Part shown: one piece after another, positions 1,005-30,975 of the stretch | Numbering within the stretch: position 1 is the first letter of the stretch | How the letters are laid out: the number at the start of each line of letters is the position of its first letter | Assembly: GCF_030406325.1 (NCBI RefSeq) | Contig: NZ_JAUEQY010000031.1 | Span: 62,001 to 126,000, forward strand | Length of the DNA: 64,000 nt | Direction of reading: 5' to 3' | Source of the DNA: Actinomadura sp. DC4 | GTDB taxonomy: Bacteria; Actinomycetota; Actinomycetes; Streptosporangiales; Streptosporangiaceae | Notes under the pieces: model-generated | Database searches by the model: none | The model's input: only the letters and a program-made list of their open reading frames with translations | What the model was told of the DNA's origin: nothing | Made by a program: the position numbers and the translations under genes

Positions 1005-2108
1005 TCACATGCCGTGGATGCGGCCGGAGGTCTCGGTCAGGGCCTGGCCGCTGCCGCCCCAGCGGAGCTGGATGAGCTCGGCCGCGATGGAGACGGCCGT
1101 CTCCTCCGGGGTGCGGGCGCCGAGGTCGAGGCCGATCGGTGAGCGGAGCCGGGCGATCTCCTCCTCGGTCACGCCCGCCTCGCGGAGGCGTTCCAGCCGG
1201 TCCTCGTGCGTGCGGCGTGAGCCCATCGCCCCGACGTACCCCGCGCCGGTGCGCAGCGCCACCTCCAGCAGCGGCACGTCGAACTTCGGGTCGTGGGTCA
1301 GCACGCAGATGACCGTGCGCTCGTCCACGTCCGACTCGGTCTCGGTCAGGAACTTGTGGGGCCACTTCACCACGACCTCGTCGGCCTCGGGGAAGCGCTT
1401 GGCGGTCGCGAAGACCGGGCGGGCGTCGCAGACGGTCACGTGGTAGCCGAGGAACTTGCCGACACGGGCCACGGCGGCGGCGAAGTCGATCGCGCCGAAC
1501 ACCAGCATGCGGGGCGGCGGGGCGAAGGCGTGCACGAAGACGCCGAGCTCGTCCAGGCGGCGCTCGCCGTGCCGCCCGTACCGGCGGATTCCGGTCGTGC
1601 CCTGAGCGAGCATGCCGCGCGCGTCGTCGTCCACGGCCTCGTCCAGGCGGTCCACGCCGAGTGAGCCCTCCGCCCGGTCGGTCCACACGATCCGGCGGGC
1701 GCCGACCTCTCCGGGCCCCTCGATCACCGTGACGATCGCGACCGGCTCGTGGCGTTCGATGGAGGCGACCACCTCGCCGAACAGCGGGAAGGTCTCCCGG
1801 CTGATCGGCTCGACGAGGATGTCGAGGATGCCACCGCAGGTCAGCCCGACGGCGAACGCGTCGTCGTCGGTGACGCCGTACCGCTGCACGACCGCCTGGC
1901 CCGACTCCATGACCTCCTGCGCCAGCTCGTAGACCGCGCCCTCGACGCAGCCGCCGGACACGCTGCCCACGGCCTCGCCGTCGGCCGAGACGGCCATCGC
2001 GGCGCCGGCCGGGCGCGGGGCGCTGCGGAAGGTGTTGACGACGGTGGCCAGCCCGAAGGCCTCCTCCCCGTCGTACCACTTCCCGATCTCCCGGAGGACG
2101 TCACGCAT
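1005..2108 (-). CDS. XdhC/CoxF family molybdoenzyme accessory protein
   Basis: A 367-residue XdhC/CoxF-type protein. This family helps insert the sulfurated molybdenum cofactor into xanthine dehydrogenase or CO dehydrogenase-type enzymes. The N-terminal XdhC domain is visible as TVVNTFRSAPRPAGAAMAV and GSVSGGCVEGAV, followed by the LTCGGILDILVEP segment near residue 95. The C-terminal Rossmann-like domain begins at MLVFGAIDFAAAV and includes CVLTHDPKFDVPLL and GAMGSRRTHEDRL. The ATG overlaps the stop of the upstream VWA gene by 8 bp, so the trio MoxR-VWA-XdhC reads as one operon, in the order of coxD-coxE-coxF. No molybdoenzyme subunit gene is present here. Confidence 0.9.
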   Translation of the reverse strand: MRDVLREIGKWYDGEEAFGLATVVNTFRSAPRPAGAAMAVSADGEAVGSVSGGCVEGAVYELAQEVMESGQAVVQRYGVTDDDAFAVGLTCGGILDILVEPISRETFPLFGEVVASIERHEPVAIVTVIEGPGEVGARRIVWTDRAEGSLGVDRLDEAVDDDARGMLAQGTTGIRRYGRHGERRLDELGVFVHAFAPPPRMLVFGAIDFAAAVARVGKFLGYHVTVCDARPVFATAKRFPEADEVVVKWPHKFLTETESDVDERTVICVLTHDPKFDVPLLEVALRTGAGYVGAMGSRRTHEDRLERLREAGVTEEEIARLRSPIGLDLGARTPEETAVSIAAELIQLRWGGSGQALTETSGRIHGM

Positions 2109-3198
2109 TTCCGATCACCCCTGCCAGTTCTTCGAGTGCGGCGAGGCTGTGCCCGGCCACAAAGTCGTCAACGTACGGAAGCGCCGCGAGCATCCCTCCT
2201 GTGAGGGGTTCATACCCAGGTTGCGCTTTGTGGGGGTTCGACCAGACCACTCTGTGGGCGAGCCGGTGCAGCCGCGCCATCTGATCGCCGAGGAGGGACG
2301 CGTCGCCGCGCTCCCAGCCGTCGGAGGCGATCACCACGATCGCGCCGCGCGCCATGCCCCGCTGCCCGAAGCGGTCGAGGAACTCCTTCAGCTCCTCCCC
2401 CAGCCGCGTACCCCCGCTCCAGTCGGGGATCGCCGCCGAGACCGCCCTCATCGCCGCGTCCGGCTCGCGGTGCCGCAGCTCCCGCGTCACCCGCGTCAGC
2501 CGGGTGCCCGCGCTGAACACCTCGGTCGTACGGGGTGCCGAGCGCACCGCCGCGTGGGCGAAACGCAGGAGGACGTCGGCGTACGGGCTCATCGAGCCGC
2601 TCACGTCCACGATGAGGACCACGCGCCGGGCCCGCGTACGGTGCGCGCGGTAGTGCAGGCCGGAGATCTCGCCGCCGCGCCGCAGGATCGAGCGGACCGT
2701 ACGGTGCGCGTCGAGCCGTCCGCGGTGCCGCGCGGTGAACCTCCGCGAGCGGCGCTGCGCGGAGACGTCGTCCAGCAGGGCGAGGAGCCGGTGCACCTCG
2801 GCGCGTTCGGCCGCGTCGAGGCGCGCCACGTCGCGGGACCGCAGGATCTCGGTCTCGCTGGCCGTCGCGGCCGAGACGTCGCCGGTCCGGTCATCGTCGC
2901 CGCCGGTGCCGGGCGTGGCCGCGTGCCGTACGACCGTGACCGGCGGCGGGGCGCTCCTTCGCGCGGTGGCGGTGGTGCCGGAGAAGTACGCGGCGAAACA
3001 CCGGTCATAGCGCGGCAGGTCGGCGGGGTCGGCGCACATCGTGAGCCGCCCGGCCCAGTAGACGTCGCGGGCGTCGAGCACGTCGAGGTGGCTCACCGCG
3101 CCGATCATGGCCTGGACGCGCTCGGGATCGGCGCCCACACCGGCGGCCCGCAGCGTACGCGCGAAGCCGGTGAGCGTCTCGACGACGTCCCGTGCCAT
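2101..3198 (-). CDS. VWA domain-containing protein, CoxE-like
   Basis: A 365-residue protein of the CoxE/VWA-containing family. The C-terminal von Willebrand A domain (about 190-360) keeps a complete MIDAS: DVSGS at 198-202, a threonine in SGGTRLGEEL near 264, and ASDGWERGD near 291-299. The N-terminal half is helical with a charged linker. Family members work with MoxR-type AAA+ ATPases as chaperone pairs that mature metalloenzymes. The gene starts 4 bp after the moxR-like gene ends and overlaps xdhC, so the three are surely co-transcribed. The substrate enzyme is unknown. Confidence 0.88.
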   Translation of the reverse strand: MARDVVETLTGFARTLRAAGVGADPERVQAMIGAVSHLDVLDARDVYWAGRLTMCADPADLPRYDRCFAAYFSGTTATARRSAPPPVTVVRHAATPGTGGDDDRTGDVSAATASETEILRSRDVARLDAAERAEVHRLLALLDDVSAQRRSRRFTARHRGRLDAHRTVRSILRRGGEISGLHYRAHRTRARRVVLIVDVSGSMSPYADVLLRFAHAAVRSAPRTTEVFSAGTRLTRVTRELRHREPDAAMRAVSAAIPDWSGGTRLGEELKEFLDRFGQRGMARGAIVVIASDGWERGDASLLGDQMARLHRLAHRVVWSNPHKAQPGYEPLTGGMLAALPYVDDFVAGHSLAALEELAGVIGNA

Positions 3199-3202
3199 CC
3201 GG

Positions 3203-4117
3203 TCACGCCCCGTTGAACAGCGTCTCGATGCCGCCGGCGACCACGCGCTCGGTGTCCTCGCGGTACTTCAGGACGGTGCCGAGCGTCACCGCCGCGGTGT
3301 CGGGGTCGAGGTCGCGCGCGCCGAGGGCGACGAGCGCCTCGGTCCAGTCGAGGCTCTCGGCGATCCCCGGCGCCTTGAGCAGGTCGAGCCCGCGCAGCCT
3401 GCCCGCGGCGCCCGCCACCTGCCGTACGAGACTCTCGGCCGCCTCCGGCAGCCGCCGCCGGATGATCGCCACCTCCCGGTCGAACGCGGGGTGCTCCAGC
3501 CAGTGGTAGAGACAACGGCGCTTGAGGGCGTCGTGCACCTCGCGCGTACGGTTGGAGGTGACGACGACGACCGGCGGGCGTTCGGCGCTGATCGTGCCCA
3601 GCTCGGGGATGGAGATCGTGAAGTCGCTGAGCACCTCCAGCAGGAAGGCCTCGAACTCGTCGTCGGCCCGGTCGATCTCGTCGACGAGCAGGACGCTCGG
3701 GCGCGCCTCGGTGGAGGTCTCCAGTGCCTGGAGCAGCGGCCGGGAGACGAGGAACCTCCGGTCGTACAGCTCCGACTCCAGGCGCTGAACGTCGGTGACG
3801 CCCGCCGCCTCGGCCGCCCGCAGGTGCAGGAGCTGGCGGGGGAAGTCCCAGTCGTACAGGGCCTGCGCGGCGTCCAGGCCCTCGTAACACTGCAGGCGGA
3901 TCAGGGGAACGTCCAGGATGGCCGCGAGGGTCTTGGCCAGTTCGGTCTTGCCGACCCCCGCCTCACCTTCGAGGAACAGCGGCCGGCGCATGCGCAGGCC
4001 GAGGAAGCAGGCGGTCGCGAGTCCGTCGTCGGACAGGTACGAGTGCCGTTCGAGGGCCTCACTCAGGTCCTGCGGCGACGCGAAGTCCGATGCCGGTGTT
4101 GACGTGGTATGCGGCAC
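3203..4117 (-). CDS. MoxR family AAA+ ATPase, CoxD-like
   Basis: A 304-residue MoxR-type AAA+ ATPase. Walker A is GEAGVGKT at residues 51-58, Walker B is VLLVDEID at 142-149, and a sensor-1 segment reads VVVTSNRTRE near 180. The CoxD subgroup remodels the active site of form I CO dehydrogenases; other MoxR proteins mature different metalloenzymes. It is the first gene of the operon with the VWA and XdhC genes. Directly upstream is an unrelated Nudix gene, so the catalytic subunits usually found here (coxM, coxS, coxL) are missing. Confidence 0.9.
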   Translation of the reverse strand: MPHTTSTPASDFASPQDLSEALERHSYLSDDGLATACFLGLRMRRPLFLEGEAGVGKTELAKTLAAILDVPLIRLQCYEGLDAAQALYDWDFPRQLLHLRAAEAAGVTDVQRLESELYDRRFLVSRPLLQALETSTEARPSVLLVDEIDRADDEFEAFLLEVLSDFTISIPELGTISAERPPVVVVTSNRTREVHDALKRRCLYHWLEHPAFDREVAIIRRRLPEAAESLVRQVAGAAGRLRGLDLLKAPGIAESLDWTEALVALGARDLDPDTAAVTLGTVLKYREDTERVVAGGIETLFNGA

Positions 4118-4152
4118 GCCCTAAAGGCTACTTCCCGCCGCACCGCCCCAGA

Positions 4153-4647
4153 TCATGAAGGCGACATGTAGACGAGGCCGCCCGCCTCCCGCGCCCGGAG
4201 CGCGGCGGGCAGTCGGTCGCCCACGTGACCGAGCAGGGTGGCCGCCTTGCCGGGCTCGAAGAACGCGTGGTCGTCGAGCTCGTCCTCCTGGAGCCGGATC
4301 CGGTCGGGGTTCTCCAGGATGCCGGCGTCGAAGATGAAACTGACGGTGGGCCGCGGCCGCTCGGCCCGCGCGGGCCGCCAGTCGACGAGGAGCAACGGCC
4401 CGAGGGGAAGGTCGAGGCCGAGCTCTTCCTTGATCTCCCGGGCACAGGCGGCCTCGGGCGACTCGTTGTCGTCGGCGGTCCCGCCGGGGAACAACCAGTG
4501 GTCACGGTAGTTGGGCTTGACGAGCAGCACCCGGCCGCCGCCATCGGTGATCAGCGCCCCCGCGGTGACGAACGCGGCGGCCAGGCCGGCGTAGTAGATC
4601 TCCGGCTCGACGAACGAACCCCGCTGCTTACCCCCGTCATCGTTCAC
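4153..4647 (-). CDS. Nudix hydrolase
   Basis: A 164-residue Nudix hydrolase, a family that cleaves nucleoside diphosphates linked to another moiety. The complete Nudix box lies at residues 56-78: G56, E62, then REIKEELGL from 70, matching G-x5-E-x7-REUxEExGU. The preceding WLFPGG is also typical. The substrate cannot be read from the sequence. It ends 35 bp before the MoxR-like gene on the same strand, so co-transcription is possible but a functional link is not evident. Confidence 0.9.
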   Translation of the reverse strand: MNDDGGKQRGSFVEPEIYYAGLAAAFVTAGALITDGGGRVLLVKPNYRDHWLFPGGTADDNESPEAACAREIKEELGLDLPLGPLLLVDWRPARAERPRPTVSFIFDAGILENPDRIRLQEDELDDHAFFEPGKAATLLGHVGDRLPAALRAREAGGLVYMSPS

Positions 4648-4849
4648 CCGCAGCAGGCTACGCGAGTCACTCCGGGCAGAGGTCCCGGGTCACGGGGATG
4701 GCGGCGAAGCCTGCCCACCCGAGAAACGACCGCCTCATCAGAAAACTCAGCACCATTCAGGGGCCACGAGATCACTATCCCCTCATATCGACACCTTTAC
4801 CCCCAAGTGGTCCGGCTGAGTGGATCCAATAACCCCAGGTCACACACCT

Positions 4850-4878
4850 TTGACCACCTAGCGGGCAGATGCTAACGT
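4850..4878 (+). promoter_or_regulatory. Probable housekeeping sigma promoter of the DUF6879-NLR operon
   Basis: TTGACC (4850-4855) is followed after exactly 17 bp by TAACGT (4873-4878), matching the actinobacterial SigA/HrdB pattern TTGAC-17-TAnnnT. It lies 36 bp upstream of the first gene of the operon. The surrounding sequence is clearly more A+T-rich than the coding DNA. Confidence 0.6.
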
Positions 4879-4913
4879 CCTGAAAATAGACCAGCATCTC
4901 ACCGGGAGCACAA

Positions 4914-5183
4914 ATGCCCAAGAAATGGGAAGCCGATTCCTCCGCCTCATTCTTGCGGCGTCTCGGCAAGTCTTCGCATGAATTAGGACAGACTTCCGGC
5001 AATTCCAGCTGCCCGGACATCTGGGAGCTGGACAACGGAGATGTCGCGGTGATCGGCCAGGATCTCACGTCGGAATACGAGGCCAGGCTACCGGCGGGCG
5101 TCAGCGTCGACCCAGGTGAACGCCTTGTGATTATCCCTCGCAAGACCATCACCGCGGCAAAGGCAGATATTCCCGATGAGTGA
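4914..5183 (+). CDS. Small hypothetical protein upstream of DUF6879
   Basis: An 89-residue protein with no domain I can name. The N-terminus is polar and serine-rich. The middle reads CPDIWELDNGDVAVIGQDLT, and the C-terminal part ERLVIIPRKTITAAKA suggests a small beta-rich fold. From general familiarity, proteins with this C-P-x-x-W-E-L pattern often sit directly before DUF6879 genes in actinomycetes. A GGGAG Shine-Dalgarno lies near 4904-4908 and a good promoter at 4850-4878. The end overlaps the next start by 8 bp, which indicates translational coupling. It may be an antitoxin-like or regulatory partner, but that is speculation. Confidence 0.8.
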   Translation: MPKKWEADSSASFLRRLGKSSHELGQTSGNSSCPDIWELDNGDVAVIGQDLTSEYEARLPAGVSVDPGERLVIIPRKTITAAKADIPDE

Positions 5184-5796
5184 TCTTCTTGACGGCGCAT
5201 CGGGTGAGCGAATGGAACTCGATGCCTACTACGCCGATTTCGAGAAGAACTTCTGGAACATAACCGATCTCGGCTTCTGGAAGCTTGAACGCCAGCAGGT
5301 CTTCAAAGAGCCCGGATACGACAGCTGGACGGCATTCGCACACGGCGACTGGGACGAGTCGATACGCCTCCTCGAGGCCGGACGTGCGGACATGCTGGAC
5401 TACCACCGCAAGATCGCCGAGCACGGCTTCGTCGCCGCGCGAGTCCGGGTGGTCGAAGAGCCGATCAGCGCGTACCTGCAGTGGGAGCTCAACGCGCTGC
5501 GCGTGCGGGACGAGTGCGGCGGCGGCGTACGCGTCGTCCGGCCGGCGCAGATCACGCGGTTCGAAACCGACGGGCCGCTACCCGAGATCTACACTCTCGG
5601 GCCGCACGTCATGTACGAGGCCGTCTACGACGAGGAAGGCGTGCTCGACTCCGTGGTCCGTTACCTCGACCGCGGTCTGATCGCGCGTTGCCAGCGCTTC
5701 GTCGCGGACCTCTACGAGATGGGCGAACCTCTCGGGCGCTACTTCGCACGTCAGGTGGCGCCCCTCCCTCCTCCCGGCCCGCAGCGCCAGGGCTGA
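5176..5796 (+). CDS. DUF6879 family protein
   Basis: A 206-residue soluble protein resembling the actinobacterial DUF6879 family. Visible features are an aromatic N-terminus (AYYADFEKNFWNITDLGFWKLE), a central helical part with RVRVVEEPISAYLQWEL, and a C-terminal sheet with YTLGPHVMYEAVYDEEGV followed by a long helix. No catalytic motif is evident. Members usually appear next to helix-turn-helix regulators or signalling proteins in actinomycetes, and their function is unknown. Here it is the middle gene of a three-gene operon: it overlaps the small gene before it and lies 18 bp before the NB-ARC/TPR gene. It has no copy of the RHIM-like motif seen in that neighbour. Confidence 0.8.
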   Translation: MSDLLDGASGERMELDAYYADFEKNFWNITDLGFWKLERQQVFKEPGYDSWTAFAHGDWDESIRLLEAGRADMLDYHRKIAEHGFVAARVRVVEEPISAYLQWELNALRVRDECGGGVRVVRPAQITRFETDGPLPEIYTLGPHVMYEAVYDEEGVLDSVVRYLDRGLIARCQRFVADLYEMGEPLGRYFARQVAPLPPPGPQRQG

Positions 5797-5814
5797 CATC
5801 TCCGGAGGCCAGTG

Positions 5815-8214
5815 ATGCGCGGCGAGGATCCGGACGGGCCCGACGAAGAGCTCCGGCACGCCAACCGGTTCGGCGGCACGGGCGGTGACGTCGTCCAGGC
5901 GCGCGACGTGCAGGGCGGAGTCCATTTCCACGGCTACGTCCCGGCCTTCGCGGTGACACCGCGGCAGCTTCCCGGCGGTGTCCGCGGGTTCGTCAATCGC
6001 CATGCGGAGCTGGCGCGGCTCGACGACATCGCCGCCGACCACCGGGAGCCCTCCGTGTCCGCCGTCGCGGTGATCACGGGCACGGCCGGTGTCGGGAAGA
6101 CGTCGCTCGCGTTGCACTGGGCCCACGGCGCCCGTCAGCGCTTCTCCGCCGGTGAGCTGTACGTGAACCTCCGCGGCTACGACCCCGGGCCTCCCGCGAC
6201 GCCGGAACAGGTCCTGGACCGGTTCCTGCGCGACCTCGGCGTTCCCACCGCGGCGATACCCGCGGGGCTCGAGGACAGAGCGTCGCTCTACCGGTCGATC
6301 CTGGCGGATCGGCGGATGCTGATCGTCCTCGACAACGCCGCGAGCGCGAGCCAGGTACGGCCCCTGTTACCGGGCACACCCGGCTCCCTGGTCCTGGTGA
6401 CCAGCCGCAGCCGCCTGTCCGGCCTGGTGGCGCGCGAAGGCGCGTACCGCCTCGGCGTCGGCATGCTCCTCGAGGCCGATGCCGTCGCGCTGCTGCGAGC
6501 CGTCACCACCGGCTACCGAGGTGAGGATCAGCCGCACGAGCTCAGGGAGCTGGCCGGGTTGTGCGCACGGCTGCCGCTCGCGCTTCGCATCGCCGCGGAG
6601 CGGGCGGCGAGCCGTCCGCTGATGATGCTCGGCGAGCTGATCGCGGACCTACGCGACGAGTCCGCGCTGTGGAACGCCCTGAGCGCGGAGGACGATGAGG
6701 AGACCGACGCGGTGCGTACGGTGTTCGCCTGGTCCTACCGCGCTCTTCCTGAGCAGGAGGCGCGCCTTTTCCGATTCCTCGGGGTGCATCCCGGCAACGA
6801 TTTCAGTCTGCCCGCCGCCGCGGCGGTCGTCGGCATCACGCCGGCGCAGGCGCGGCAGCAGCTCGACGTGCTGGTCGGCGCTCACCTGATGGAGCAGAGC
6901 GCTCCCGGGAGATACCGCTTTCATGATCTACTCCGCGCCTACGCGGTCGACCAGCTCCACCATCTCGAGTCCGGCGACGCGCGGATCGAGGCTCTGCGGC
7001 GAGTGCTCGGCTGGTACCTCCACACCGCGGACGCGGCCCAGCTCGTCCTCAGCCCATTCGACGGCTATCCCCTTGATCAGCGGGTACCGGCCGACGTCGC
7101 ACCGCTCGCCTTCGACGGATACGAACCGGCCTACCGCTGGTACCAGACGGAGAGCGTCAACCTCGTGGCGGCGACCCGTATCGCCGCCGCGGCCGGCCTC
7201 CACTCCACCGCCTGGCGTCTGTCCGCCGTACTGCGCGGGATCTACATGCATCAGAACGCCTTCGATGACTGGGTCGTCACCGCGCGCGTCGGCGTCGACG
7301 CCGCGGCACAGGCAGGTGACCGTCCCGGTGAGGCCGAGGCGCTCGAGAGCCTCGGAAAGGCGTATTTCCAGTCCCTGCGGCTCTACGAGGCGGAGGAGGC
7401 CCATCGGGCCGCCCTGGTCATCCGCCGCGAGATCGGCGACCGCTTCGGCGAGGCCGTGTCCGTCAATGCCCTTGGGCTGCTGGGACTGCGGCACAGGCGG
7501 CTCGACGAGGCGGAGTCTCGCTTCGAGCAGAGCACGGCGATCTTCCGTGAGCTGGGTGATCGGCGCTGGGTGGCGCTCCTGCAGGCGAACCTCGCGGAGG
7601 CGCACTGCGAACTGGCCGAGTACGAAGCCGCCGTGAGCGGGCTCGGCGTCGCGCTGGGCGTCTTCCGTGACCTGGGCGACCGGAGTTGCGAGGGCAACGC
7701 GTTGTTCCTGCTCAGCTGGGCACGGCGGGAGCTGGGGCGGACAGGTGACGCCCGTGCGTCCATCGACGAGGCACTGACGATCGCCTCGGAGGAAGAGAAC
7801 CCGGTCTGGCAGGCTCACTGGCTCGTCGAGCTGGCGAAGGTGCAGCGAACGGCGGGACAGCCCGGCGAAGCGCTGAACTCCTACCAGCGGGCCGCGTCGA
7901 TCCAGCGGAAGCTGGGCGACCGGAGCCGCGAGGCCGCCGCGCTGGACGGAACGGGCGAGGCCTACCAGGAGCTCGGTCGCTTCGCCGAGGCGGCGAACTT
8001 CCATCGCCAGGCCGCCGCGACCCACCGGCAGTTCGGGGACCGCTGGCAGCTCGCCGTCGCGCTGCACCACCTCGCCATGGCGCTCGACCGTACGGACGCG
8101 TCCGAACAGGCGCGGGCGCACCGGGAGGAGGCGCTGGTTCTGCTCGAGGCCTTCGACGATCCCAAGGCGGTGTCGTTGGCCCGGCGCGTCAGCGAGGGCC
8201 TGCGGACCCCGTAG
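5815..8214 (+). CDS. NLR-like NB-ARC ATPase with C-terminal TPR repeats and N-terminal RHIM-like motif
   Basis: About 799 residues. The N-terminal 45 residues are disordered but contain the compact motif VQARDVQGGVHFHG (residues about 27-40), which resembles RHIM-like bacterial amyloid signalling sequences found at NLR N-termini. A STAND-class NB-ARC follows: Walker A GTAGVGKT near 89-96, Walker B MLIVLDNA near 168-175, the sensor segment VLVTSRSR near 194-201, and RLPLALRIA further on. The rest is a winged-helix region and about seven TPR repeats ending near 780, of the pattern ALxxxGxxxxxLGxxxEA. It looks like an AfsR-type protein with the SARP DNA-binding domain replaced by the short motif. 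A GTG (5812) precedes the chosen ATG; CCGGAGG at 5802-5808 spaces better to the ATG. It is a likely ligand-gated signalling ATPase; no effector domain is fused. Confidence 0.88.
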   Translation: MRGEDPDGPDEELRHANRFGGTGGDVVQARDVQGGVHFHGYVPAFAVTPRQLPGGVRGFVNRHAELARLDDIAADHREPSVSAVAVITGTAGVGKTSLALHWAHGARQRFSAGELYVNLRGYDPGPPATPEQVLDRFLRDLGVPTAAIPAGLEDRASLYRSILADRRMLIVLDNAASASQVRPLLPGTPGSLVLVTSRSRLSGLVAREGAYRLGVGMLLEADAVALLRAVTTGYRGEDQPHELRELAGLCARLPLALRIAAERAASRPLMMLGELIADLRDESALWNALSAEDDEETDAVRTVFAWSYRALPEQEARLFRFLGVHPGNDFSLPAAAAVVGITPAQARQQLDVLVGAHLMEQSAPGRYRFHDLLRAYAVDQLHHLESGDARIEALRRVLGWYLHTADAAQLVLSPFDGYPLDQRVPADVAPLAFDGYEPAYRWYQTESVNLVAATRIAAAAGLHSTAWRLSAVLRGIYMHQNAFDDWVVTARVGVDAAAQAGDRPGEAEALESLGKAYFQSLRLYEAEEAHRAALVIRREIGDRFGEAVSVNALGLLGLRHRRLDEAESRFEQSTAIFRELGDRRWVALLQANLAEAHCELAEYEAAVSGLGVALGVFRDLGDRSCEGNALFLLSWARRELGRTGDARASIDEALTIASEEENPVWQAHWLVELAKVQRTAGQPGEALNSYQRAASIQRKLGDRSREAAALDGTGEAYQELGRFAEAANFHRQAAATHRQFGDRWQLAVALHHLAMALDRTDASEQARAHREEALVLLEAFDDPKAVSLARRVSEGLRTP

Positions 8215-9073
8215 GCGGCTCGGCGGGCTCTGACTCGACGATCCAGATCGGGCCGTCCGCGCACTCCACGCGCAGTCCCCCGGTCTCGCCGAGGCGAGTG
8301 CGCAGGACCCTCAGCCAGCGGTCGCCGACCCGGGCGACGGGTCCCCGGCCCGCGCCCATGAAGCGGAACGTTCGTACCTGGTTGTGTATCTCGCGAGCCG
8401 TCGATGACCAGTCGACCACGGAGAACCCCGGCTCCATCAACCCCGCGCGGGACGCGCCCGCGTGGCCTTGCGGCCGGCCGGGGTCGTTGAGGGAGATCCG
8501 CTTAAGCGCGACCGTCAGAAGGTCCCGGATCACCGGCTCGGCAGAGACTCGCAGCCGTTCGGGCGTGATGTCGTCATCAAGCGGTATTCCGCCCCGCTGG
8601 GCGAGAATCGGTCCCGTATCGAAATCGTGGTCCATGCGATGGATCGTGAACCCGATCTCGGGATCGCCGTTGCGGATCGCCCAGAGCACCGGCGCCGGTC
8701 CTCGATATTCGGGCAGAAGCGAAGAGTGGATATTGATGACACCGAACCGCGGTAGCTGCAACACGGCGGGCGGCAGTTTCCAGTTGAAGCCGTACACGAC
8801 CGCTAAATCAGCGTGATATCCGGCGAGAGCCTCGCCCAGACCTTCGGCGCTGCCCGGCAGAAGCAGGTCGGTTTCCGGCGGAATCGACGCGATGATCCGG
8901 CCGATCGTCGCCGCCATTCCCTCGTCGGCGGGGCTCCTCGGCCTCATCGAACGACTCAGCGCGAAGGCGACCGGGTGGTGTCCTTCCGTGACGCACGTTT
9001 CGTGAAGGAGTGAGAATTCCTCGGCGCCGGAGGAGATTAAGGCGACGCGCATCGCATTGACCACGGGCGCCAT
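8189..9073 (-). CDS. Formyltransferase family protein (methionyl-tRNA formyltransferase-like)
   Basis: A 294-residue member of the N10-formyltetrahydrofolate-dependent formyltransferase family. The catalytic triad is intact: Asn114 and His116 in VINIHSSLLP and Asp152 in HDFDTGPI. The sequence around it (PEYRGPAPVLWAIRNG) matches Fmt-type enzymes. The genuine fmt lies at 29504-30430, so this paralogue probably formylates something else, such as an amino sugar or a peptide intermediate. The C-terminal part (about 215-290) is Fmt-like but short. The start could also be the ATG at 9052 (MRVALISS). Its 3' end overlaps the convergent NLR gene by 26 bp. Confidence 0.82.
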   Translation of the reverse strand: MAPVVNAMRVALISSGAEEFSLLHETCVTEGHHPVAFALSRSMRPRSPADEGMAATIGRIIASIPPETDLLLPGSAEGLGEALAGYHADLAVVYGFNWKLPPAVLQLPRFGVINIHSSLLPEYRGPAPVLWAIRNGDPEIGFTIHRMDHDFDTGPILAQRGGIPLDDDITPERLRVSAEPVIRDLLTVALKRISLNDPGRPQGHAGASRAGLMEPGFSVVDWSSTAREIHNQVRTFRFMGAGRGPVARVGDRWLRVLRTRLGETGGLRVECADGPIWIVESEPAEPPTGSAGPR

Positions 9074-28153: not shown

Positions 28154-29504
28154 GCAGGGCCAGGAACATCGCGTCCGTGCCGTGCCGGTGCGGCCAGAAC
28201 TGCGCGTACGGGCCGTCGCCGAGATCGGGCACGCCTTCCAGGTACGACGGGGCGTCAAGACGTTCGACGTCCTCGCGCCGCCGGAGGACGTCGTCGACCA
28301 CGACCCGTGTCTCGGCCAGGTGCGGCGAGCACGTGACATAGGCGACCACACCGCCCGGCCGTACGGCCTCCAGAGCCGAGGTGAGGAGGCTCCGCTGGAG
28401 CGGGCCCAGCTCCGCGATCGACTCCGGGCCGCGCCGCCAGCGCGCCTCCGGGCGCCGGCGGAGCGCGCCGAGGCCGCTGCACGGCACGTCGGCGAGCACC
28501 CGGTCGAAGGCCCCCGGCCGCCAGGCCGCCTGCGTGCCGTCCACGACGGCGACCGCCGCGGCCGGGCCGACGGAGCGCCGTACGAGCCGGGCGCGGTGCG
28601 GCTGCAGGTCGCAGGCCAGCAGCCGGGCGTCGCGCTCGCCCGCCAGCCCCGACAGCAGCGCCGCCTTGCCGCCCGGCCCGGCGCACAGGTCGAGCCAGCG
28701 CCCGTCCGGGCCGTCGAGCTCGACGCGGGTGAGAGCGAGGGCGACGAGCTGGCTCGCCTCGTCCTGGACGGCGGCGCGGCCCTCCGCCACGGCGGGCACC
28801 GCGGCCGGGTCGCCCTCGGCGAGGTAGGCGGCGTACGGGGAGTACGCGGCGGGCTCACCACCGAGTTCGGCCACGGTCGAGCGGCCGGGCCGGGCCACGA
28901 GGGTGACGCGGGGGCGTTCGTTGTCGGCGGCGAGCAGGGCCTCGACCTCGTCCGCGCCGGCGGCGTCGCGCAGCGCGTTGACGATCCAGCGGGGGTGGCT
29001 GTGCACGATCGACAGGCGGCCGACCTCGTCGTCGGGCGCGACGATGGCCAGCCACGCGTCGCGGTCGCGGGCCGCCACCTTGCGCAGCACGGCGTTGGCG
29101 AACTTCGCCTGCCCCGGGCCGGACACCGAACGGGCCAGGTCGACCGCGGTCCCGACCGCGGCGTGCGGCGGGATGCGCGTGCCCAGGAGCTGGTGGCTGC
29201 CGAGCCGCAGGACGTTGAGCAGCGGCAGGTCGATCTTGGCGACGGGCCGGTCGCTGCACATGCCGAGCACGGCGTCGTACGTGCCGCGCCCGCGCAGCGT
29301 GCCGTACGTCAGCTCGGTGGCGAGCGCGGCGTCGCGGCCGGACAGGCCCCGCTCGCGCAGGAGGGAGGGCAGCAGGAGGTTGGCGTACGCGTCGCGGTCG
29401 TCGACGGCCTGCAGGACGTCGAAGGCGGTACGGCGGACCGGGTCGCGGGGACGCTTGGGCTTGGGCTTGGGCTTGTGGGGTCCGGAGGATCGCTGCTGCG
29501 GCAT
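28140..29504 (-). CDS. rsmB: 16S rRNA (cytosine-C5)-methyltransferase RsmB/NOP family
   Basis: A 454-residue RsmB. The N-terminal NusB-like domain follows a lysine/proline-rich tail (KPKPKPKRP) and contains AALATELTYGTLRGR. The methyltransferase domain has DLCAGPGGKAALLSGLA, and both cysteines of the NOP/RsmB mechanism: the catalytic one in VTCSP and the release one in DVPCSGLG. It methylates C967 of 16S rRNA in Escherichia coli. The ATG overlaps the fmt stop by 1 nt; the 3' end overlaps the convergent methyltransferase by 14 bp. Confidence 0.95.
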   Translation of the reverse strand: MPQQRSSGPHKPKPKPKRPRDPVRRTAFDVLQAVDDRDAYANLLLPSLLRERGLSGRDAALATELTYGTLRGRGTYDAVLGMCSDRPVAKIDLPLLNVLRLGSHQLLGTRIPPHAAVGTAVDLARSVSGPGQAKFANAVLRKVAARDRDAWLAIVAPDDEVGRLSIVHSHPRWIVNALRDAAGADEVEALLAADNERPRVTLVARPGRSTVAELGGEPAAYSPYAAYLAEGDPAAVPAVAEGRAAVQDEASQLVALALTRVELDGPDGRWLDLCAGPGGKAALLSGLAGERDARLLACDLQPHRARLVRRSVGPAAAVAVVDGTQAAWRPGAFDRVLADVPCSGLGALRRRPEARWRRGPESIAELGPLQRSLLTSALEAVRPGGVVAYVTCSPHLAETRVVVDDVLRRREDVERLDAPSYLEGVPDLGDGPYAQFWPHRHGTDAMFLALLRRR

Positions 29505-30430
29505 CAGATCAGCGCGTCGCCCTCGGCCGGGCGCACGCCGCGCGCCCAGTCGGTCGCGGCCATCCGCTGCTTGCCCTGCGGCTGGACGTCGCCGAGCCGG
29601 ACCGGGTGGGAGCCGGTGCCCGCGAAGGTCTCGGTCTTGGTCACCCGCAGCTCGCCCGGGGCGAGCGGGGCCTCGTCGGGCGCCGGGCGTACGGGCCCGA
29701 GCTTGAGCCGATCGCCGCGGAACGTCGTCCAGGGCCCCGGCGCCGGCGTGCAGGCGCGGACCAGCCGGTCGATGTGGTGCGCCGGCAGGCCCCAGTCGAC
29801 GTGGGCGTCCTCGGGCGTGAGCTTGGGGGCGAGCGAGACGCCGTCGGCCGGCTGCGGGCGCGGCTCCAGCTCGCCCTCCTCGACGCCGTCCATCGTGGCC
29901 ACGAGCAGCTGCGCGCCGGTCGCGGCGAGCCGCCCGAGCAGGTCGCCGCTGGTGTCGGTGGGAAGGATCGGCTCGGTCACGACGCCGTACACCGGCCCGG
30001 TGTCGAGCCCCTCCTCGATCTGGAAGGTCGCCGCGCCGGTGATCTCGTCGCCGTGCAGGACCGCCCGCTGGACCGGTGCGGCGCCGCGCCAGGCCGGCAG
30101 CAGCGAGAAGTGCAGGTTGATCCACCCGTGCCGGGGGATGTCGAGCGCCACCGGCGGGATGAGCGCGCCGTACGCGACCACCGGGCAGCAGTCCGGGGCG
30201 ATCTCGCGCAGCCGGTCGAGGAACTCCGGGTCGCGTGCCTTGGCGGGCTTCAGCACCTCGATGCCGGCCTCGGCCGCGCGCTGCCCGACCGGGCTCGCGG
30301 TCAGCCGGCGCCCGCGGCCGGCCGGGGCGTCGGGGCGCGTGATGGCGGCGACGACCTCGTGCCGGGACTTCAGCAGCGCGTCGAGCGCGGGCACGGCGGT
30401 CTCCGGTGTACCCGCGAAGACGAGCCGCAC
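29504..30430 (-). CDS. fmt: Methionyl-tRNA formyltransferase
   Basis: A 308-residue Fmt that formylates initiator Met-tRNA. The catalytic [15 protein letters not shown] with the preceding asparagine (INLHFS) and the GLDTGPVY aspartate are present; the C-terminal tRNA-binding domain begins near 205. The GTG start ([10 protein letters not shown]) overlaps the def stop by 1 nt, and the stop overlaps rsmB. The order def-fmt-rsmB is the usual translation-initiation cluster. Confidence 0.96.
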
Positions 30431-30975
30431 TAGAGCGCCTTCCCGAACAGCTGGTGCGGGGAGTTCTTGATCACCGGTGGCTCGTCGCCGAACCACTCGG
30501 CCTCGCGGATCGCCTTCATCGCGGCCTTGCGCTGCTCGGTGTCGAGCCGGTCGATGAAGATGATGCCGTCGAGGTGGTCGGTCTCGTGCTGGACGCAGCG
30601 GGCCAGCAGGTGGGTGCCCTCCAGGGTGATCGGCTCCCCGTACATGTTGAAGCCCTTGGCCACGACCCCCAGCGCGCGCTTGGCCGGGAAGACCAGGCCG
30701 GGCAGCGAGAGGCAGCCCTCGTCGCCCTCCTCCTGCTCCTCCGACAGGTCCAGGGTCGGGTTGACGACGTGCCCGAGCTGCTCGTCCACGTAGTAGGTGA
30801 AGACCCGCAGGCCCACGCCGAGCTGCGGCGCGGCGAGCCCGACGCCGGGCGCCTCCATCATCGTGTCGGACAGGTCCTGGACGAGCGTGCGCAGCTCCTT
30901 GTCGAAGTCCTTGACCGGGTCCGCCGGTGTACGCAACACCGGGTCACCGAACAGACGAATGGGCTTGACGGCCAC
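30430..30975 (-). CDS. def: Peptide deformylase
   Basis: A 181-residue deformylase removing the N-formyl group of nascent proteins. All three motifs are intact: [10 protein letters not shown] (motif 1), EGCLSLPG (motif 2, metal cysteine) and QHETDHLDG (motif 3, metal histidines and catalytic glutamate). GTG start. It leads the def-fmt-rsmB operon and follows priA by 47 bp on the same strand. Confidence 0.97.

Follow-up and report, generated by a model that had tools for sequence, protein, structure and literature searches.

The putative amyloid signalosomes of the BASS/Bell-NLR type reportedly go back to Dyrka et al. 2020. These are systems of multicellular bacteria and, in the sections of two papers that describe them, the published amyloid signalling pairs have a homotypic layout, in which receptor and effector carry one shared motif (PMC8086366, PMC7889193). 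The Bell architecture is given there as a small domain, a hydrophobic segment and a C-terminal motif (PMC7889193, PMC8086366).

We analysed a locus of Actinomadura sp. DC4 in a window of 64,000 nucleotides (the whole stretch of DNA studied here), which sits on contig C36 of a genome of 10.67 Mb in 101 contigs. Like the described systems, the locus encodes an NLR with a short N-terminal motif, and the same motif is found C-terminally on a small protein encoded on contig C56 of the same genome and on Bell-like proteins linked to related receptors. It differs from them in that receptor and effector are not adjacent in their own genome, linkage being seen in 23 of 80 relatives (the best 80 of 293 DUF6879 loci), in that the unlinked effector is kept across the genus, and in that a small protein, a DUF6879 protein and an enzyme resembling Fmt accompany the receptor. 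A preliminary description of this DNA had picked out the receptor but missed the two genes in front of it and the formyltransferase gene behind. The features are as follows.

4648..4913, no strand: site where relatives have a divergent Bell-like gene; none was found in the window
4914..5183, plus strand: small gene, 89 aa (MPKKWEAD...CPDIWELDNGDVAVIG...IPDE), its 3' end overlapping the start of the DUF6879 gene
5176..5796, plus strand: DUF6879 protein, 206 aa (PF21806, 1.7e-34)
5815..8214, plus strand: NB-ARC/TPR (NLR-type) receptor, from ATG 5815, with an alternative GTG start at 5812
5863..5943, plus strand: motif region NRFGGTGGDVVQARDVQGGVHFHGYVP, from profiles and tblastn with the linked effector of locus L207 (E 1.4e-5)
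5893-5934, plus strand: motif core VQARDVQGGVHFHG, residues 27-40 counted from the ATG
6058..6738, plus strand: NB-ARC domain, residues 82-308 (PF00931, 5.8e-6, 26.2 bits, cut-off 23.5)
7333..8142, plus strand: TPR region, about residues 507-776 (PF13424, PF13176 and weaker TPR models)
8189..9073, minus strand: second formyltransferase, Fmt-like (PF00551, 2.7e-25), convergent with the receptor gene and overlapping its end by 26 bases

The receptor reading frame runs from GTG 5812 or ATG 5815 to the stop at 8214, giving a product of 799-800 residues. Translation and domain matches confirmed the earlier placement of the motif N-terminal to the NB-ARC and TPR parts, with a TPR_12 match (6.1e-24) lying C-terminal to it. 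The sequence contains, in order, the P-loop GTAGVGKT, LIVLDN, VLVTSR, RLPLA and YRFHD. Judged by its sequence, the receptor is an NLR/STAND NTPase, having an NB-ARC domain with P-loop, Walker B and HD motif together with repeats.

The loose pattern by which the motif was first recognized proves little on its own, because it matched once in the 54 predicted genes of the window where shuffled sequences lead one to expect 0.65 matches. A stricter pattern, [VIL]QA[RG]x[VI]xG[GDN][VI], composed after relatives had been inspected, also matched once, against 0.0025 expected. We regard the motif as real because it is conserved among relatives. A regular expression picked it up in 29 of 31 receptor loci, and in the remaining two, L018 and L027, it is visible by eye. 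Among the best 80 of 293 DUF6879 loci, it was detected by profile in 64 of the 66 receptors that adjoin a DUF6879 gene, a set picked without regard to the motif; in the other two (L203 and L214) the called reading frame starts later. Conservation among close homologues was one of the tests named when the motif was first described, and both counts bear the motif out. Across 61 aligned N-termini, identity is mostly 70 to more than 90 percent at the motif positions, 10-30 percent over about ten residues after the motif and 20-70 percent over the residues before it. These N-termini had been selected with a motif expression, so only positions outside that expression, namely an H-F-H conserved at more than 80 percent, serve as an independent sign. 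The distance from motif to P-loop is 56-72 residues in the receptor N-termini.

Two of the 22 loci in the genome with NB-ARC homologues carry the motif, and nine loci retrieved by a first peptide search (E up to 10) had no further copy by regular expression. The earlier statement that the window holds no second copy was borne out by two profile scans of reading frames of at least 40 aa. With the receptor profile, of which the receptor's own motif is a row, the next best frame reached 3.4 bits versus 50.7 for the receptor; with the effector profile, of which it is not a row, the corresponding values were 2.8 and 20.0 bits.

The RHIM-like label did not hold. The RHIM/PP core is defined, in the relevant section of PMC7885112, as G-(I,V)-Q-(I,V)-G. 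This core is absent from the receptor, which has D-V-V-Q-A-R instead. The published BASS3 peptide scored 1.1 bits with the effector profile and was unlisted with the receptor profile. We therefore rejected RHIM/BASS3 membership on the missing core and on the low scores of the BASS3 peptide, which neither profile recognizes. What the receptor shares with BASS3, RHIM and fungal PP is a short Q- and G-containing motif placed before an NB-ARC/TPR protein, as in the portion of PMC7889193 that deals with fungal PNT1.

The DUF6879 gene ends 18 bases before the receptor ATG, and this arrangement recurs. Of the 29 family loci L011-L039, 25 have DUF6879 immediately before the receptor gene in the same orientation, and 25 have a relative of the small gene upstream of the receptor; DUF6879 is absent within the stretch at L012, L025 and L035, and is on the opposite strand at L036. 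A wider set comprised the best 80 of 293 DUF6879 relatives, taken from named genomes; these loci are not independent because many are from Streptomyces and Micromonospora. In this set of the best 80, 76 loci have a relative of the small gene no more than 600 bp in front of DUF6879, and 66 have a receptor adjoining DUF6879. All five cassette genes occur together in eight, and 14 have receptor and small gene without Fmt or a called Bell-like effector. Pairwise distances correlate for DUF6879 and receptor (r 0.70, n 62), for receptor and Fmt (r 0.90, n 34, three short Fmt reading frames dropped) and for receptor and Bell (r 0.96, n 12), all three at the floor of 2000 permutations, although common descent of the hosts can yield part of this signal. 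Of 296 genomes of the class searched with a profile of this DUF6879 subfamily, 18 had a match at E up to 1e-20, and 16 of these 18 belong to the family of the window; DUF6879 relatives were found in 4 of 72,556 plasmid records.

Searches with the two upstream products gave few leads. The small-gene product matched no Pfam family over cut-off and none was listed in NCBIfam or PADLOC, while DUF6879 with 50 relatives found nothing better than E 0.64 among PDB sequences. A literature search on the word DUF6879 found nothing, motif strings returned unrelated matches only, and the cassette was in none of the matches listed, the founding BASS study being outside that search. Another DUF6879 gene in the same genome (L292, in the C34:437775 region) has in front of it a small gene that by eye resembles the one in the cassette, and behind it, in the receptor's place, a gene for a protein with hydrophobic segments; the pair of small gene and DUF6879 may be a general module. 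Outside the cassette, the minus strand of the window carries a row of genes at 1005-4117, which we take to be XdhC-like, vWA-like and MoxR-like and to resemble a molybdenum-hydroxylase maturation set.

The product of 8189-9073 has as its best PDB match the methionyl-tRNA formyltransferase 5uai (7.3e-22). Cassette enzymes belong to the same sequence family as Fmt, and the NxH...D signature is present in 50 of 52 cassette reading frames (some loci having been fetched twice), the two without it being 200 and 100 aa long. The enzyme differs from the other formyltransferase of the window, at 29504-30496, with which it is 29% identical. We take the latter to be the housekeeping fmt because its neighbours look like priA and rsmB. 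Formyl_trans_N was found at four places in the genome. A formyltransferase gene is present at 45 of the best 80 of 293 DUF6879 loci, and its position in these 80 varies: it is convergent behind the receptor in 35, including L189 without a receptor, it lies in front of the operon in four, and in six Streptomyces loci it is co-directional behind DUF6879 with no receptor.

Among the same best 80 of 293 loci, 23 have a Bell-like reading frame with the motif, which in 22 of the 23 is divergent and upstream of the operon. This is the stricter count; 27 loci have a reading frame with a C-terminal motif when the receptor fragment L258 and frames unmatched by the Bell profile are included. L260 (E 0.26) and the two-segment protein of L135 (E 3.5) went unmatched by the Bell profile. 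Hydrophobicity was measured in nine proteins that this profile confirms, and in these the 17-residue stretch of highest hydrophobicity is found where the domain begins; its mean Kyte-Doolittle value ranges from 0.72 to 2.16 and is modest in some, as in L245 (0.72). Scans of two or three Bell-like members produced either weak matches or none above the cut-off in Pfam, NCBIfam and PADLOC, and a PDB sequence search with the Bell-like profile found nothing better than E 0.37. In the window itself, tblastn of ten effectors against 4100-5200 gave a single match below E 0.1 (L211), and since this lone match is antisense to the small gene we rejected an effector remnant upstream. Local receptor-effector motif pairs were no more alike than shuffled ones (p 0.67, 26 pairs, being the 27 loci with a C-terminal motif minus L214, where no receptor motif was called), so local specificity beyond the common core was not found.

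Other motif-bearing proteins were seen at related loci. A second effector-like type of 92-113 aa, near or beside motif receptors (L128:6588-6881, L135:5522-5800 and L136:11351-11692), has hydrophobic segments around VGL..ADK.ASV.GA and a C-terminal motif. A 284-aa protein at L157:4239-5093 has a weak C-terminal motif and no Pfam match; its start, we presume, resembles nucleotide cyclase domains.

The suggestion that a partner effector lies elsewhere in the genome fared better than the RHIM-like character attached to it, as the same motif is present on the effector-like protein on C56. In this small protein the motif forms the last residues, ending in VTNTVTGNVRGNVLQARDIHGNITF, and it is the only strong non-receptor motif match in the genome. 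A receptor-only profile of 28 rows (A1), which include the window receptor but not C56, matched the genome at seven places with E up to 10, one of them being the C56 protein at E 0.0026. In cross-tests, for which each profile was free of the opposite side's own-genome sequence, the receptor-only profile gave the C56 motif 22.6 bits and the effector-only profile gave the window receptor's motif 27.3 bits. A combined profile of 26 rows (A3), including the C56, C17 and C34 motifs and leaving out that of the window, found 11 places, with C56 at 1.8e-13, C17 at 6e-11, C34 at 1.4e-8 and the window receptor at 1e-5; the fifth-best place reached only E 0.107, so that four stand out. At the level of sequence, receptor and effector share a motif architecture.

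The C34 protein is a receptor preceded by a DUF6879 gene; the 80-aa gene before that gene was unmatched in the small-gene search. The C17 protein, of 405 aa and FxSxx_TPR-like, was set aside as a receptor-type motif protein without an NB-ARC match. The fifth place (E 0.107) is an 840-aa NACHT protein on C24 (L269:4006-6528) with the variant N-terminal motif YNTVSNSVVRFLVQARDIEQITIH. On C31, a PNP_UDP_1 nucleosidase (L122:6897-8030) has GVQAGTVYGGVRF inside the chain, with about 90 more residues after it, a weak internal profile match at E 0.165 and 0.464. Phosphorylase-type effectors are paired with amyloid motifs in fungal NLR systems too, according to the part of PMC9815663 concerned with them. 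The remaining A3 matches on C88, C22 (twice), C36 (C36:117341) and C38, at E 1.6-8.8, were taken as chance.

By its architecture, the C56 protein appears to be of Bell type, as do the linked proteins. Its domain is homologous to the effectors beside receptor relatives (hmmsearch 2.1e-11 with 16 test proteins, hhalign 97.4%). Seven of eight genomes of the genus have the C56 gene, with the same flanking genes in the five relatives compared (G152 lying outside the comparison), and in five of the seven copies the full motif core forms the last residues. In one further copy (L299, G176:C38:10275-10661) the near-invariant Gln is replaced by Arg (VLRARDIHGDITF), and another (L303, G152:C1:1678193-1678534) ends in GAVSGEVSGNVAF with the motif core lost. 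Matches of receptor type to the receptor profile were found within the genus in G000, G115 and G166, and among the fetched loci of genus relatives only G115 has a DUF6879-linked receptor. Within the genus, motif receptors detected with the receptor profile are rarer than the C56 gene, which therefore need not encode the partner of the window receptor. Since this gene is a stable part of the chromosome in the genus, several receptors may share a single effector.

We think it reasonably probable that, in the manner of BASS signalling, the receptor uses its short, amyloid-type motif to template an effector that is encoded elsewhere and may act on membranes. Holding or sensing a trigger would fall to the TPRs, perhaps assisted by the small protein and DUF6879; the NB-ARC domain would then oligomerize, as its family suggests, and gather several N-terminal VQARD motifs. 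The gathered motifs could then template the C-terminal motif of the C56 Bell-like effector by cross-beta stacking, if the two are indeed partners. By analogy, the hydrophobic N-terminal stretch of the effector may act on the membrane and so stop or kill the infected or damaged compartment.

The motif might instead be a plain docking strand that binds one-to-one with an effector or with DUF6879 and signals without polymerizing. Such a role would suit a short motif that is conserved on several otherwise unrelated proteins, the C31 nucleosidase with its internal copy perhaps among them, but the homotypic layout of published amyloid pairs, as parts of PMC8086366 and PMC7889193 present it, matches the receptor and effector found here, and we consider docking unlikely. 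The locus could also be a decaying receptor without a working partner. The linked effector was not found in the window, and in a similar locus of Actinomadura alba (L189) the DUF6879 gene is followed directly by the formyltransferase gene, with the receptor absent. Against this, the reading frame is full-length, its nucleotide-binding motifs and the operon are intact, and the C56 effector bears the motif, which makes decay very improbable.

A different kind of alternative is that the receptor is an AfsR-like regulator of metabolism or development that lacks the DNA-binding part, with neighbours that form a peptide- or folate-linked pathway. The NB-ARC and TPR part is similar to AfsR over residues 46-726, NCBIfam returns AfsR at 388 bits (cut-off 1430) and HaaT at 341 bits (cut-off 1125), an Fmt-like gene adjoins the receptor, and receptor-free DUF6879-Fmt units occur in the six Streptomyces loci. 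However, both scores fall far below cut-off, and AfsR is matched only from profile position 285 onward, which leaves the receptor without the N-terminal DNA-binding part and with the short motif in its stead; AfsR/SARP membership was rejected on these grounds. Moreover, the motif is missing from 20 of 22 own-genome NB-ARC homologue loci yet present in 64 of 66 DUF6879-linked receptors, and motif-bearing Bell-like reading frames stand at 23 of the best 80 of 293 loci. We regard an AfsR-like role as quite doubtful.

Returning to the probable amyloid-type signalling by the receptor, its small protein, DUF6879 protein and Fmt-like enzyme set it apart as a variant of BASS systems, and we propose the formyl link as the most useful lead to the trigger. 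One speculative reading, to which we give little weight, is that the cassette guards N-formylation or the supply of one-carbon units: the Fmt-like enzyme, small protein and DUF6879 would make or read a formylated product, and the receptor would fire the shared-motif effector on a disturbance such as phage takeover of translation initiation. The trigger of microbial NLRs, the amyloid type included, is named an open question in a section of PMC7889193, and the guard reading, if true, would hand bacterial amyloid-type NLRs a candidate cue. Two uncharacterized proteins and a second formyltransferase, found in several gene orders, are now named candidates for the sensing side. The C56-type copies in which the motif is lost or changed (G152 and G176) offer natural controls, and persistence of one effector through the genus alongside varying receptors would point to a death module that the receptors share.
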